A stretch of 64,000 bases of DNA from Rhizobium sp. BT03 (GTDB lineage Bacteria > Pseudomonadota > Alphaproteobacteria > Rhizobiales > Rhizobiaceae). The stretch lies in contig NZ_CP125640.1 in assembly GCF_030053155.1 (NCBI RefSeq), forward strand, positions 186,001 through 250,000. The letters run 5' to 3'. Below the pieces are notes generated by a model. The model saw only the letters and a program-made list of their open reading frames with translations. It was not told the DNA's origin and searched no databases. Shown here piece by piece: positions 1,322-37,023 of the stretch. Every line of letters begins with the position of its first letter. Position 1 is the first letter of the stretch. The position numbers were made by a program, and so were the translations under genes.

Positions 1322-1491
1322 ATCTGCTCCTATTCCGCGTGCTGGTGGCCCAGTGCTCCACCCATAGCGGCGTGGCGGCGGGTTGGTAGCCCCAGGTTGC
1401 TCGTAGCAGCTTTCAAATCGGAACTTGGATCGATCATCCGGGCGTGAGTTATGAAGCCGGATCCGGTCGGCGTAGCCGTGAGATAACCGGG

Positions 1492-1526
1492 TTGACCCCC
1501 ACCGCCCTGTTGGGCGGCGGGTGTCT
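1492..1526 (-). terminator. hairpin downstream of aroG
   Basis: ACCCCCACCGCCC and GGGCGGCGGGTGT form a GC-rich stem around a short loop just past the aroG stop, read on the minus strand. There is no strong T-run. The 1322-1491 stretch upstream holds nothing else recognisable. Confidence 0.45.
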
Positions 1527-1550
1527 GCCCGCCGCGCTTGATGCTGTCTA

Positions 1551-2618
1551 TCAGGCCGCGACGGCTGCCTTGCGCCGTTCGCGGGCGGATTTCGCCAAGT
1601 CTTCCAGTACGGCTACCGACATGTCCCAGTCGATGCAGCCGTCGGTGATGGACTGGCCGTAGACCAGCGGCTTGCCGGGGACGAGATCCTGGCGGCCGGC
1701 GACGAGGTTGCTCTCGATCATCATGCCCTTGATGTGGCGATTGCCGGCGGCGATCTGCGAGGCCACGGATTTGACGACGCGCGGCTGGTTCATCGGATCC
1801 TTGCTGCTGTTGGCATGGCTGGCATCGATCAGGATGCGCGGGGGCACGCCAAGCTTGACGGCTTCGCCGACCACAGCTTCGACATCGGTCGCTTCATAGT
1901 TCGGCTGTTTGCCACCGCGCAGGATGATGTGGCAGTCCTCATTGCCCCTCGTCGAAGCGATGGCCGCCTGTCCGTCTTTGGTGACGGCGGGGAAGTGATG
2001 CGGCTGCGAGGCGGCGAGGATAGCGTCGAGCGCGACGCGGACGCCGCCGTCGGTGCCGTTCTTGAAGCCGATCGGGCAGGAGAGGCCGGAGGCGAGCTGG
2101 CGATGGATCTGGCTTTCGGTCGTGCGCGCGCCGATCGCGCCCCAGCTGACGAGATCGGTAATGTATTGCGGCGTGATCGTTTCGAGGAATTCGACACCGG
2201 CGGGCAGGCCCATCGCATTGACGTCGAGCAGCAGGCGCCTGGCAATCCGAAGTCCTTCCTCGATGCGGTAGCTGCCATCGAGATGCGGGTCGTTCATCAA
2301 GCCCTTCCAGCCGACCGTGGTGCGGGGCTTTTCGAAATAGACGCGCATGACGATTTCGAGATCGCCGGAGAAGCGCTGCCGCTGTTCCGCCAGCCGCTCG
2401 GCATATTCGCATGCCGCAGCAGGATCATGGATGGAGCAAGGGCCGATGACGACGATCAGGCGGTCGTCTTCTCCCTCGAGAATCTTGTGAATCGCATGGC
2501 GGTTGCTGGTCACCGTCTCGCTGACGGCAACGGTTCGGGGAATTTCCGCGATGATATCGGCGGGTTTGGTCAGCGGGGTGATCTCGAGGATACGGAGATC
2601 GTCAATGGTATCGGGCAC
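1551..2618 (-). CDS. aroG: 3-deoxy-7-phosphoheptulonate synthase (DAHP synthase, class I)
   Basis: It catalyses the first step of the shikimate pathway, condensing phosphoenolpyruvate and erythrose 4-phosphate to DAHP in the cytoplasm. The 355-residue length and the motifs GPCSIHDP (59-66) and KPRTTVGWKG (97-106), with a late DASHANSSKD, mark the AroF/G/H type I enzyme, unlike the plant-like type II enzyme also found in many rhizobia. The start is GTG at 2618 with AGGAG 7 bases upstream. Expression is probably controlled by an attenuator in its 160-base leader (see separate entries), and the start codon itself lies in one arm of a 10-bp inverted repeat. It is transcribed alone; a terminator separates it from the upstream gene. 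Confidence 0.95.
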   Translation of the reverse strand: MPDTIDDLRILEITPLTKPADIIAEIPRTVAVSETVTSNRHAIHKILEGEDDRLIVVIGPCSIHDPAAACEYAERLAEQRQRFSGDLEIVMRVYFEKPRTTVGWKGLMNDPHLDGSYRIEEGLRIARRLLLDVNAMGLPAGVEFLETITPQYITDLVSWGAIGARTTESQIHRQLASGLSCPIGFKNGTDGGVRVALDAILAASQPHHFPAVTKDGQAAIASTRGNEDCHIILRGGKQPNYEATDVEAVVGEAVKLGVPPRILIDASHANSSKDPMNQPRVVKSVASQIAAGNRHIKGMMIESNLVAGRQDLVPGKPLVYGQSITDGCIDWDMSVAVLEDLAKSARERRKAAVAA

Positions 2619-2653
2619 GGTATGGCTCCTGTTTGGTCATACCGTGCGGAACG

Positions 2654-2680
2654 AAAAAGCCGCCAGGTAGACTAGCGGCT
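2654..2680 (-). terminator. attenuator terminator upstream of aroG
   Basis: On the minus strand AGCCGC (2680-2675) pairs with GCGGCT (2663-2658) and runs into a five-U tract, a typical Rho-independent terminator placed between the leader peptide and aroG. The 3-side competitor AGCGG at 2731-2727 can pair with CCGCT at 2678-2674 instead, which would block the terminator. Confidence 0.7.
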
Positions 2681-2708
2681 GTTCGGGTTGTCGTCGCGTC
2701 GACTTCAG

Positions 2709-2783
2709 TTACGCATAGACCCGCATCCGCTGGGAGCAGCGGTACCAATAAAATCGCGAGGCGTAGATCGAAGTGGTCGACAT
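2709..2783 (-). CDS. putative aroG leader peptide (aromatic-rich)
   Basis: The 24-residue ORF contains the run Phe-Tyr-Trp-Tyr at residues 11-14, plus further Tyr at 7 and 23, an unusual cluster of exactly the amino acids made by the pathway. No Shine-Dalgarno is present. The ATG lies 7 bases past a -10 box, so the message would be leaderless, as is known for the S. meliloti trpL leader. The codons after the aromatic run overlap hairpin segment 1 (CCGCTG, 2742-2737), which pairs with segment 2 (CAGCGG, 2732-2727). Stalling at FYWY would free segment 2 to pair with segment 3 and prevent termination. The structure is seen in the sequence; the regulation is inferred. Confidence 0.7.
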   Translation of the reverse strand: MSTTSIYASRFYWYRCSQRMRVYA

Positions 2784-2789
2784 CGGGCG

Positions 2790-2818
2790 TATGTAGCGTC
2801 GCGGCAGCCCATTGTCAC
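2790..2818 (-). promoter_or_regulatory. aroG leader promoter
   Basis: GTGACA (-35, 2818-2813) and TACATA (-10, 2795-2790) are spaced by 17 bases on the minus strand, a good housekeeping-sigma match. The predicted start site falls on or next to the A of the leader ATG at 2783. Confidence 0.6.
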
Positions 2819-2889
2819 GCAGAATTTTGCGGCTGAAAGCCAGGCGCTCGGGCGCGGCGAAACCGTTCCTGCGGAGGGCTTAATTCAAT

Positions 2890-2916
2890 CGCCCAGAAGC
2901 TCGCTGCTTCTGGGCG
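2890..2916 (-). terminator. terminator hairpin after the Cache protein gene
   Basis: CGCCCAGAAGC, a 5-base loop and GCTTCTGGGCG form a perfect 11-bp stem 31 bases past the stop of the periplasmic Cache protein gene. There is no uninterrupted T-run, only an AT-rich flank. It isolates aroG from the chemoreceptor unit. Confidence 0.65.
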
Positions 2917-2946
2917 AGAGATACGAACTTAACGAAGGTCTTGAGA

Positions 2947-3528
2947 TCAGAGCGCGTCGACGTTCACGCCGACGGTGATGGCGCCGATCGGCGTTCCCTT
3001 GTCGTCTGATATCGTGACGCTTGCCTGCGACTGCAGCGTCTGGGTCGATTCGTCCTTTTCGATCTCATCGACGAAGACGGCATCCTTGCCGGCACCGAAG
3101 GACTTCTGGAACTTGCCCTCGTCACCCTGCCAATAGTCGGATGTGGGATCGCTTTGGCCGACATTCAGCCCCTTTGCATCCATGACGAAGATCTCCGAAA
3201 TCTTGCCGTTGGAAGCAGCCTTCTTTTCCTGAAGGAATTTCGACAACGCATTGCCGAGCACGCCGTCGATCATCGAGTGGTCGGAGCCATCGACTTCGGC
3301 ACGCCACTTCTTGTCGAGAGCGTCGATATCGCCCTGGCTCAGATTGGCGTTTGCGGCGTTCTGCGCCTTGACCGCCTCGATGATGGCGGGGTCGTTAAGC
3401 CAGGGTTTTACGTCGCTGGTCACGTAGTCGGAGATCGGGGCGAGCTTCGCATCCTGCGCCATGGATACGCCCATAGGCACGGCGACTGCGGTGCAGGCCA
3501 AAAGAAATGCGGTCACAACTTTCTTCAT
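2947..3528 (-). CDS. periplasmic Cache-like sensory protein
   Basis: The 193-residue protein has a cleavable signal peptide (residues 1-24, ending SMA-QD) and no other membrane segment, so it should be periplasmic. The C-terminal half (PTSDYWQGDEGKFQKSF, QSQASVTISDDKGTPIGAITVGVNV) has the layout of single Cache/PDC ligand-binding domains, which normally form the sensor part of chemoreceptors. AAGGGAAC precedes the ATG. It lies 60 bases downstream of a chemoreceptor gene on the same strand and probably shares its transcript, suggesting that it binds a ligand and docks to that receptor. This function is inferred; the ligand is unknown. Confidence 0.7.
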   Translation of the reverse strand: MKKVVTAFLLACTAVAVPMGVSMAQDAKLAPISDYVTSDVKPWLNDPAIIEAVKAQNAANANLSQGDIDALDKKWRAEVDGSDHSMIDGVLGNALSKFLQEKKAASNGKISEIFVMDAKGLNVGQSDPTSDYWQGDEGKFQKSFGAGKDAVFVDEIEKDESTQTLQSQASVTISDDKGTPIGAITVGVNVDAL

Positions 3529-3588
3529 AACTGTTCCCTTCCCGATTTTGGGTGTTGAGGATTAAAAGTCTATCGAATGAAGACGAGG

Positions 3589-5463
3589 TCAGAACTCCTC
3601 CCAGGCACCGGGAGCAGCGGCAACGGCGGCATTTCCGGCGTGCCGCTGCACGAAGGCTCTGGGTTCAGGGCGAGATTGACGAACGGGTTGAGCGGCTCTG
3701 GGCTGACTGGCGGCAGCGGCGCCGACGGTGAACCGGCCGGCGGAATCCTGCAGAAGGCGTCCCTGCGTGCGCAGCTCCTGGCAGGCGGCGTTGGTCTCCT
3801 CGACCATTGCCGCGTTCTGCTGTGTCGCGTGATCCATCTGGTTGATGGCGCCGTTGATTTCCTGCAGGCCCGTGGCCTGTTCGCGATAGGATTGGACGAT
3901 GGAAGCGATGCTGTCGCTGATGCGGTTGATCTGCTCCTCGATCTTCAAAAGGGCATCGCCGGTTTCGTTGACCAGCCCGACGCCGGCCGCCACTTCCTGG
4001 CCGGAGACGTTGATCAGGTTCTTGATTTCCTTGGCCGCGTTGGCGGAGCGCTGGGCGAGTTCCCGCACTTCCTGCGCGACGACCGCAAAACCCTTGCCGG
4101 CTTCGCCGGCGCGCGCCGCCTCGACGCCGGCGTTCAACGCCAGCAGGTTCGTCTGGAAAGCGATTTCATCGATGACGCCGATAATGCGGCCGATCTGGCT
4201 CGATGATGTCTGGATCCGGTCCATCGCCCCGATCGCATCGCGTACCACAGTCGCCGAGACATGGGCGCTGCGCTTCGTTTCCTCGACCAGCTTCCCGGCA
4301 TCTTCGGCCCGCTGCGACGATGTTCTGACCGTGGTGGTCACCTCATCCAGTGCTGCGGCGGTCTGTTCCAAGGCCGCGGCCTGTTGCTCGGTACGCTTGG
4401 CGAGCTGATCGGCGGAGGAAGCAAGCTCGCTTGAGCCGCCTTCAACCGCAACGGAAGCGATCTTGATCTCGGTCAGCGCTGCCGCGACTGCTTCGACCAT
4501 GTTGTTGAAATCCTGCCGCAGTTTATCGAATTCGGGACCGAGATCGGCCAGGCGTATCGAAAAGTCGCCGGCGGCGAGCTTTTCCAGTTCATTTGCCAGC
4601 GCTGTCATGACCAGCCGCTGAGCGTTGCTGGCCTCTTCCGTCAGGGATGCGTTACGCGCCCGTTCGGCGTCGAACGAGGCGCTCTGCTCGGCCGCGGCCT
4701 GCTCTCTTTCGATCTTGGCAATTGCCTCGTTACGGAAAACTTCCAGGGCACGCGCCAGAAAGCCGATTTCGTCGCCATTTTCCCTGTAGGTGACGGGGGA
4801 GGCCAGATCGCCTTTCTGCAAGGCGCTGATCCGCTCGCTGAGAATTCTGAGAGGGCGGCCGACGAGGCTGCGCATGGCGAGAAGAAAAGCGACAACGGCC
4901 ATGGCGGTGATCACAAACTGGGTCAGCAGCGAAATCAACACCTTCTGCTTGACTTCGGCAGCGATTTTTTCGACCGACCAGTTGGTGACGACGTAGCCGG
5001 TCGCCTTGCCTGATTTATCCAGCGGAAGCGGCGCGATGATCGTCACAACGCCGGCAGATATTCCGCTGTCATCGATCGTGGTTTTCTCAGGCTTGGCACT
5101 GAGGCGCTTCGCCAGATCGGCCGGCGAGGGCAAACCGTCAACGCCGTCGCGCGTCCATGTATCGATGGCCGCGGGTTCGGCGTTGAAGGCGGCAAACTGA
5201 ACAAGGTCAAGCGAGGGATCGTCGCGGTACAGCGAATAGGCCTCGCGAACGGCATTCGCCTTGCCCCATTTCACGCCGCCGGCGGCCAGAGAGGCGAACT
5301 GCTCCACATCCTTGGACCAGTTCGCCTTGGCGCCATCGATCAACGCCTTGGTTTCGTACATCCACGTATAGGTGGCAAAGGCGGAGATGCCGCAAAGGTT
5401 GACGGTCACGATAATCGCCGCCAGCTTGGCTGTCAGGGGCATCGTTTTTAAAAAATGGAACAT
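3589..5463 (-). CDS. methyl-accepting chemotaxis protein
   Basis: A 624-residue transmembrane chemoreceptor. TM1 is at about residues 11-32, a periplasmic sensor region of about 130 residues follows, and TM2 is near 170-195. One or two HAMP segments and the long signalling hairpin come next; its tip contains DEIAFQTNLLALNAGVEAAR and the downstream GFAVVAQEVRELAQRS. The protein ends in AWEEF, resembling the C-terminal pentapeptide that tethers CheR/CheB in E. coli receptors. ATG 5463 is preferred; an upstream GTG at 5556 would add 31 Pro/Arg-rich residues before TM1. The Cache-domain gene directly downstream is a likely partner. Confidence 0.93.
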   Translation of the reverse strand: MFHFLKTMPLTAKLAAIIVTVNLCGISAFATYTWMYETKALIDGAKANWSKDVEQFASLAAGGVKWGKANAVREAYSLYRDDPSLDLVQFAAFNAEPAAIDTWTRDGVDGLPSPADLAKRLSAKPEKTTIDDSGISAGVVTIIAPLPLDKSGKATGYVVTNWSVEKIAAEVKQKVLISLLTQFVITAMAVVAFLLAMRSLVGRPLRILSERISALQKGDLASPVTYRENGDEIGFLARALEVFRNEAIAKIEREQAAAEQSASFDAERARNASLTEEASNAQRLVMTALANELEKLAAGDFSIRLADLGPEFDKLRQDFNNMVEAVAAALTEIKIASVAVEGGSSELASSADQLAKRTEQQAAALEQTAAALDEVTTTVRTSSQRAEDAGKLVEETKRSAHVSATVVRDAIGAMDRIQTSSSQIGRIIGVIDEIAFQTNLLALNAGVEAARAGEAGKGFAVVAQEVRELAQRSANAAKEIKNLINVSGQEVAAGVGLVNETGDALLKIEEQINRISDSIASIVQSYREQATGLQEINGAINQMDHATQQNAAMVEETNAACQELRTQGRLLQDSAGRFTVGAAAASQPRAAQPVRQSRPEPRAFVQRHAGNAAVAAAPGAWEEF

Positions 5464-7438: not shown

Positions 7439-7479
7439 TCCCGGCTTGCAGTGGCGCTGCTTTCCTGAAATAGATGCGC

Positions 7480-7645
7480 CGTCAGGTGCCCGCCATCCAG
7501 GCGGGAGAATCGGGAATCCGGTGCAAGACCGGAACGTGCCCAACGCTGTAAGGCCGACGCCTGCCGCTTCATCATGCCACTGGCTTTTGCCGGGAAGGCT
7601 GCGGCAGACGGGTGACGCCAAGTCAGAAGACCGGCCTGGCAAGAT
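7480..7645 (+). promoter_or_regulatory. cobalamin (AdoCbl) riboswitch
   Basis: Conserved blocks appear in order: GGTGCCCGC, GGGAGAATCGGGAATCCGGTG, ACCGG, CGCTGTAA, GCCACTGG, GGGAAGGC and the B12 box GCCAAGTCAGAAGACCGGCC. Downstream, CCAACCC (about 7650-7656) can pair with GTTGGGG (7681-7687), which contains the presumed Shine-Dalgarno of bluB, suggesting translational control: cobalamin bound, bluB off. Confidence 0.9.
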
Positions 7646-7647
7646 AG

Positions 7648-8385
<738 letters not shown>

Positions 8386-36712: not shown

Positions 36713-37023
36713 GCGCCTGCGCTTCACCTTCGCCGGAATAGGGTCCAGAAAAAGACGCCTCGCGCGCTGGTGCGAGCGAGGCGAGGCGGGCGCATTACCT
36801 ACGGATGAGGGAGGAACATCCGCGGCTTCGGAACGCGCCAGGAGAACCCAGCGATGAAAGAGCAGATGCCGTAGCTGCACTTTCGAATGTGTTCATATTA
36901 ACGCGTTCCGGTTGAGTCTGCCAGGATGAAAAATGACCATTAAATCACTGGGGAGGGTGCAAGTTTCGCACAAGTTTCGTTGTGCAGCTAAGGTTTTCCG
37001 CTCGCAACCAGACTGAAAAAGCC
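36713..37023. other. intergenic region with hairpins, no supported gene
   Basis: AAGCGC-CT-GCGCTT (36713-36726) and CGCCTCGC/GCGAGGCG (36756-36783) could stop ferredoxin transcription. A possible 27-codon ORF at 36933-37016 has AGGA 7 bases upstream but no recognisable features. The region sits between convergent genes and could hide a small RNA. Confidence 0.4.

Follow-up and report, generated by a model that had tools for sequence, protein, structure and literature searches.

A probable leaderless leader-peptide attenuator upstream of the class I DAHP synthase gene aroG in Rhizobium and its relatives

The window analyzed here, a stretch of 64,000 nucleotides from Rhizobium sp. BT03, carries on its minus strand the gene aroG (1551-2618), which starts with GTG and encodes a class I DAHP synthase of 355 amino acids. 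The product scores 523 bits against the NCBIfam model TIGR00034 aroFGH (cut-off 173) and 525 bits against the narrower NCBIfam AroG model, under the cut-off of 568. In a genome search, aroG was the sole match for a class I DAHP synthase. The second DAHP synthase of this genome belongs to class II and is encoded outside the window (G000:C1:177862-179172); no aromatic leader was found in the sequence examined upstream of its gene. Judged by AroG, Rhizobium lentis is the nearest named relative (96%) in the best 80 of the matches listed. The gene upstream of aroG occupies 2947-3528, and an inverted repeat (GCCCAGAAGC...GCTTCTGGGC, about 2889-2913, minus strand) without a T tract lies 3' of its stop codon. 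Elsewhere in the window, Rfam identifies a cobalamin riboswitch (7467-7653, plus strand, 115.8 bits) and the Rhizobiales small RNA Atu_C7 (36752-36891, minus strand, 52.8 bits).

Upstream of aroG on the same strand, to which all leader features below belong, lies an open reading frame of 24 codons (MSTTSIYASRFYWYRCSQRMRVYA, 2783-2709). Its sequence confirms the consecutive Phe-Tyr-Trp-Tyr codons reported in the initial annotation, namely TTT TAT TGG TAC at 2753-2742. The promoter GTGACA-N17-TACATA described there is likewise present, exact to the base: the -35 element GTGACA occupies 2818-2813 and the -10 element TACATA 2795-2790, with six bases from the latter to the ATG at 2783. In the alphaproteobacterial register, these elements read CGTGAC (2819-2814) and CTACAT (2796-2791). 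Since the -10 element ends 6-7 nt before the ATG, the transcript is expected to start at or next to the leader start codon.

The RNA contains four segments that can pair in alternative ways. Segment 1 has a local arm, CCGCTG (2742-2737), which pairs with CAGCGG (2732-2727), and an outer arm (2765-2755), which in the minimum free energy fold pairs with 2725-2720 and 2714-2710 and masks the rest of segment 2. Segment 2 (AGCGGATGCGGG, 2731-2720) pairs with its antiterminator partner, segment 3 (CCCGAACAGCCGCT, 2687-2674), through 11 pairs, interrupted by one mismatch and a bulge of two bases; in constrained folds this helix forms with the control codons occupied. Positions 2680-2672 of segment 3 also serve as the 5' arm of an intrinsic terminator, forming 9 pairs with segment 4 (CTGGCGGCT, 2666-2658), which runs into a T tract at 2658-2654. 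All pairings listed in the initial annotation were verified (CCGCTG 2742-2737 with CAGCGG 2732-2727, AGCGG 2731-2727 with CCGCT 2678-2674, and AGCCGC 2680-2675 with GCGGCT 2663-2658), but their extent had been drawn too short, given the 11 pairs of 2:3 and the 9 pairs of 3:4. The U5 tract noted with them corresponds to T5 at 2658-2654, which includes base 2658, paired with A2680; a T6 run is present in 77 of 93 genus leaders. The hairpin 3:4 is the sole terminator-like site listed in 1400-3600; shuffles of this region average 2.2 such sites, so that the presence of a terminator is by itself no proof. Folded as a whole, the leader gives modest z-scores (-2.27 and -1.90). Part of segment 1 in Rhizobium forms a local hairpin directly after the control codons, whereas in most other leaders folded the segment precedes them, at the 5' end of the open reading frame.

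To follow this arrangement across genomes, we collected the regions upstream of class I aroG genes from 80 loci (the best of the matches listed, in named genomes) and from draws of genomes within the family, the order, and the genus, sources that overlap in some genomes. We scored an ATG-initiated open reading frame of 16-32 codons in which three or more residues out of six are aromatic, together with a T5 run 95-190 nt further on. This combination occurs at 205 of 211 alphaproteobacterial loci and at 24 of 27 others, nearly all of the latter betaproteobacterial, versus 3 of 676 control stretches from the window and 5 of 1402 from the flanks of the loci. When a terminator hairpin is required as well, the counts are 204/211 and 24/27, versus 0/676 and 0/1402. 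As judged from these sequences, an aromatic leader with a terminator precedes aroG far more often than chance would allow. Broken down by draw, the leader is found in 93 of the 96 genus genomes with class I aroG, in all 54 aroG genomes from other genera of the order, and in 6 of 7 further family members, as well as in one additional member of the genus (G250).

The loci missed by the first form of the search (L032, L089, L135, L185, L186, and L187) differ among themselves, and L133 fails the hairpin rule alone. At L032 the leader has Phe-Tyr only and the terminator is present, and L135 has a T4 run. Three genomes, G703 (L187), G710 (L185), and G730 (L186), possess a class I aroG without a leader, and their AroG is just 69% identical to that of the window. 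In the family member G272 (L089), a remnant leader frame with YWYF codons survives but no terminator follows it; the attenuator has probably been lost naturally there.

We then built a covariance model (R1) from 92 distinct Rhizobium leaders and ran it on 120 genomes of the genus, with stricter filters that may lose weak matches. In 93 genomes it produced a single match apiece, its own training sequences matching by construction, and in 93 of 93 coordinate comparisons the match lies just upstream of class I aroG. Independently of that construction, R1 found nothing in the 24 genus genomes that lack aroG or in G703, G710, and G730. Its single match in the 64-kb window is at 2783-2653. Searched at the gathering score in the window and in 20 of the 80 related loci, Rfam placed no family in the leader and returned only cobalamin riboswitches and Atu_C7; the leader is thus a conserved RNA family without an entry in the Rfam version searched.

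The control codons are conserved unequally. Among the 93 genus leaders, Phe is always encoded by TTT and the first Tyr by TAT (93/93 for each), the third codon varies (Ser 50, Trp 34, Tyr 8, Cys 1), and the fourth is Tyr in 86 and Phe in 7. The resulting patterns are FYSY in 50 genomes, FYWY in 34, FYYF in 7, and FYYY and FYCY in 1 each. Across 32 long open frames in the window, TTC is preferred to TTT (459 versus 125) but TAT to TAC (120 versus 66), so that of the two invariant codons only TTT is a minority codon. Outside the genus, Phe, Tyr, and Trp are all present in 79 of 79 distinct leaders from other alphaproteobacteria (alignment A2), mostly around a WYF core. The conservation of aromatic codons that the initial annotation had proposed as a check therefore holds for Phe and Tyr but not, within Rhizobium, for Trp. 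Because the Trp codon is optional there, the Rhizobium leader is probably a sensor of Phe and Tyr rather than of Phe, Tyr, and Trp.

The spacing between promoter and leader ATG is conserved as well, in line with the leaderless arrangement originally proposed. The alphaproteobacterial promoter consensus is CTTGAC-N17-CTATAT, against which the window leader has a combined score of 10/12, and the GACA core of the -35 element can be aligned in most of the relatives displayed. With this consensus, the gap from the best promoter to the ATG is 7 nt in 80 of 92 distinct Rhizobium-type leaders. In the other alphaproteobacterial leaders it is 7-8 nt in 70 of 79, and four of the nine exceptions arise because the script chose the second of two ATGs. 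A gap of 6-8 nt was obtained for 12% of 855 mononucleotide-shuffled upstream sequences. A Shine-Dalgarno-like core 5' of the leader ATG is absent from 104 of 171 leaders, limited to three bases in 59, and reaches four or five bases in 8; its absence is general, not strict. A simple sigma-70 scan listed no promoter at the leader. We had expected betaproteobacteria to provide a clean contrast, with an ordinary 5' UTR, and dropped this expectation on finding mixed promoter distances in their 24 leaders: 22-27 nt in 11, 30-33 nt in 4, 13-15 nt in 2, and 3-9 nt in 7. For the alphaproteobacterial leaders, the conserved spacing predicts a leaderless start, with the RNA beginning at the leader ATG.

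The pairing of the segments leaves traces in the alignments. In the 92 Rhizobium leaders, the 1:2 and 3:4 helices together are paired in 99.2% of cells, and 23 cells are double-changed versus 2.7 after shuffling; these figures count cells, not events, and within the genus most double changes belong to a single clade of eight. Taken separately, the local arm of 1:2 is paired in 98.2% of cells, with double changes in two of its six pairs (mostly in one clade), and the terminator helix 3:4 in 99.9% (9 pairs, 92 sequences). The number of 1:2 and 3:4 pairs with a double change (3 versus 1.8 shuffled, reached in 112 of 500 shuffles) is not above chance, nor are further pair types above shuffles in the genus leaders (175/500) or in the 79 other leaders (240/500). 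For 3:4 in these 79, we counted 13 double-changed cells versus 1.8 shuffled; six of the 13 reflect a single pair that has gone from G-C to A-U in L037, L233, and a group of four. The antiterminator 2:3 is paired in 93.4% of cells within the genus, a percentage reached by 102 of 500 shuffles, and has one double-changed pair.

Since the genus varies too little for covariation in 2:3 to be informative, we exchanged segments between 21 clade representatives and asked how well natural partners pair compared with swapped ones. Natural partners pair better for 1:2 (p = 0.0014), 2:3 (p = 0.0019), and 3:4 (p = 0.0002), p values that are not exact because the representatives are related; L030 was kept among them with its segment 2 cut at the wrong place. 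The control pairings in the same test gave no such signal (1:3, p = 0.53; 1:4, p = 0.34). Compensatory changes in the stems of related genomes, the second check proposed at the outset, are thus borne out by the double-changed cells (23 versus 2.7 and 13 versus 1.8) and by the swaps between clades.

We also folded 13 chosen leaders, five of them Rhizobium-type, under constraints representing the position of a ribosome. With the ribosome on the last control codon and the RNA ending at segment 3, 8-14 pairs of 2:3 form in 13/13 leaders; with the ribosome at the stop codon, 7-9 pairs of 3:4 form and the terminator is present in 13/13. When no ribosome is placed, 2:3 is absent from 8/13, including all five Rhizobium-type leaders, and forms before segment 4 is made in 5/13, all outside Rhizobium. 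At full-length equilibrium the terminator is still the more stable structure in 11/13 stalled folds; therefore 2:3 would have to form first, during transcription, with the order of synthesis deciding the outcome as in the trp model. Pair counts, swap test, and constrained folds agree on a plan in which 1:2, 2:3, and 3:4 exclude one another.

We therefore consider the leader to be a ribosome-mediated transcription attenuator whose leader-peptide mRNA is leaderless, a reading to which we assign a probability of roughly 0.88. The trp-style, leaderless attenuator ahead of a DAHP synthase gene that the initial annotation had recognized remains the best reading, given the conserved codons, stems, and spacing. 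From the sequence elements, their conservation and covariation, and the association with aroG, we infer a start site, a termination event, and an amino-acid response as follows. Transcription would begin on the leader ATG or no more than one or two bases away from it, as the spacing predicts. When Phe- and Tyr-tRNA are charged, the ribosome would reach the stop codon, segment 2 would be covered or re-paired with segment 1, and segments 3 and 4 would then form the terminator, giving a short transcript of about 130 nt that stops ahead of aroG. Under a shortage of Phe- or Tyr-tRNA, the ribosome would stall on TTT-TAT-x-TAC and cover segment 1; segment 2 would pair with segment 3 once the latter is made, the terminator would be blocked, and aroG would be transcribed. 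If the leader is not translated, 1:2 should form and the terminator follow, a prediction for Rhizobium that does not extend to all other clades. The charging of Phe- and Tyr-tRNA would in this way set the read-through into aroG, which very probably is turned up when Phe or Tyr is short.

Other explanations of the leader have to be weighed against this attenuator. The open reading frame could encode an arrest peptide, whose nascent chain would itself detect free Phe or Tyr inside the ribosome and halt there, in place of codons that respond to charged tRNA. Within the genus the peptide does have a conserved core, RFY.[YF]R; however, residues 3-8 vary widely, and across clades only the aromatic run is common (e.g., RFYSYR, YFWYFSY, FFFGWYFGY), the rest of the peptide being different. 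Variable N-terminal residues next to constant aromatic codons fit control codons rather than an arrest peptide. Conservation extends moreover to a synonymous position, with Phe encoded by TTT in 93/93 leaders, and we regard the arrest peptide as highly unlikely.

We judge it similarly improbable that an independent small mRNA or sRNA is constitutively terminated, or processed, at the hairpin, with aroG driven from elsewhere. The terminator is strong, and rnTrpL of Sinorhizobium meliloti illustrates that leader RNAs of this kind can act in trans (PMC7298713). A constitutive terminator would nevertheless have no need of the 2:3 alternative, which covaries between clades (p = 0.0019). The leader adjoins aroG in 93 of 93 matches across 120 genus genomes; its invariant columns, moreover, are nearly all in the ATG, the control codons, the stems, the end of the reading frame, and the T tract. 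Conserved RNA stems ahead of an amino-acid gene might also bring to mind a metabolite-binding riboswitch or a T-box in place of ribosome stalling. This we consider extremely unlikely: no Rfam family reaches the gathering score in the leader (window and 20 related loci), the aromatic reading frame is conserved, and the stems obey the 1:2/2:3/3:4 plan of an attenuator.

Between the terminator and aroG lies a second hairpin (2647-2615), a perfect 10-bp inverted repeat of GCACGGTATG (2647-2638) and CATACCGTGC (2624-2615), with the GTG of aroG in its stem and the Shine-Dalgarno sequence AGGAG (2630-2626) in its loop. Its fold has an energy of -18.0 kcal/mol and a z-score of -4.9. In 145 of 167 relatives the pairing takes in 2 nt or more of the aroG start codon, and in many relatives it is retained despite different sequences. 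Of 30 chosen representatives, 21 have a z-score below -1 (the mean is -1.66, and two values exceed zero), and an arm pairs better with its own partner than with a swapped one (p = 1e-4); relatedness may inflate these values. This start-codon hairpin may add a translational layer to the control of aroG.

A second model (R2), built from the leaders of the other genera, was run over 397 genomes of the order. It matches the aroG leader in 54 of 54 non-genus aroG genomes (E <= 2.8e-20) and in five of the genus (E 3e-7 or better). Some match at E <= 0.01 occurs in 197 of 397 genomes, many of the weak ones spanning the terminator part only. We inspected 13 secondary places in other genomes and one in the BT03 genome, the latter being a trpL-like leader, MIKSLNIAVWWWAR (L255, G000:C1:3932374-3932488; E = 5e-4). 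Four of the 13 (L258, L259, L260, and L263, in G587, G409, G560, and G659), all in family f41, are VYFYY leaders, with the frame MIKTAATFVYFYYVTSIPAAA and variants and a terminator AAAAGCCGCC...GGCGGCTTTTT, upstream of tyrS-like frames. The next frame resembles tyrosyl-tRNA synthetase in 4/4 of these loci and was confirmed as such at L259 (TIGR00234, 353 bits); by its sequence, the f41 leader is a probable attenuator of tyrosyl-tRNA synthetase. In family f35, L257 (G636:C48:62504-62632) is a second leader copy whose aromatic codons are partly lost (RRFWHFTH), and a tblastn comparison over 1.85 kb from this place gave no match to aroG. A simple search for open reading frames revealed no convincing leader at the other eight places. 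We offer as a speculative, rather doubtful generalization that Rhizobiales share a layer of leaderless attenuators, comprising trpL (Trp), aroG (Phe/Tyr, with Trp outside Rhizobium), and the FVYFYY leader of tyrS, which would re-use one segment code, the aroG member also having a start-codon hairpin and possibly releasing a trans-acting sRNA like rnTrpL.

The aroG leader provides a testable account of how Rhizobium, Bradyrhizobium, and their relatives may control the entry to aromatic amino-acid synthesis via the class I enzyme, and its distribution suggests that a leaderless attenuator at aroG is the rule rather than an oddity in this order. The Trp codon, the layout of segment 1, and, in betaproteobacteria, the distance to the promoter vary among relatives, which makes these a natural set of variants on which the role of each part can be tested. 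Among the literature matches listed, none describes an aroG attenuator in rhizobia, though it may have been predicted earlier, for instance in the survey of proteobacterial attenuators by Vitreschak et al. (2004). In their main texts, a paper on Bradyrhizobium start sites (PMC4842269) contains neither aroG nor attenuation, and a tiling-array paper on R. etli (PMC2881028) nothing on aroG. The initial remark that no described aroG example of this type was known stands for rhizobia in the literature searched, but an attenuator ahead of a DAHP synthase gene, aroR-aroF of Corynebacterium glutamicum, has already been described. The aroG leader is of a kind already well known, of which the Rhizobium member is well supported and new.

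The Escherichia coli trpL and pheL attenuators share the plan of segments 1-4 with the aroG leader, in front of other target genes and behind an ordinary 5' UTR with a Shine-Dalgarno sequence. The aroR-aroF transcript of C. glutamicum, the subject of work by Neshat et al. in 2014, is reportedly leaderless. According to passages of PMC11802643, which also names trpL and pheL of E. coli, this attenuator places a Phe-Tyr-Phe leader ahead of a DAHP synthase gene; limitation of Phe raises transcription, whereas the availability of Tyr is without effect on aroR; Tyr sensing by the aroG leader is for this reason less sure than Phe sensing. The same attenuator is also covered in PMC4046766. Both systems have consecutive aromatic codons in a leader peptide ahead of a DAHP synthase gene; the aroG leader differs from the actinobacterial one in its occurrence in Rhizobiales, its FY[S/W]Y codons, its other segments, and its start-codon hairpin. 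The uORFC-13-1 motif before Acholeplasma aroF, a computational candidate in the excerpt available (PMC8632094), similarly joins a Phe-codon uORF and a terminator to a DAHP synthase gene, but belongs to another phylum and has an RBS. A gammaproteobacterial leader RNA before the DAHP synthase gene aroF is predicted for Shewanella and E. coli and termed an "attenuator sensing tyr-tRNA", with credit to a 1980 E. coli paper, in the available portion of PMC2659441; the likeness is by description only. With S. meliloti trpL-trpE(G), whose leaderless rnTrpL/peTrpL products act in trans according to PMC7298713 and PMC10117765, the aroG leader shares a leaderless reading frame (here predicted), aromatic control codons, and a terminator before a biosynthetic gene. 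The S. meliloti leader senses Trp, controls trpE(G), and has demonstrated functions in trans, whereas the aroG leader would read Phe and Tyr and control a class I aroG.
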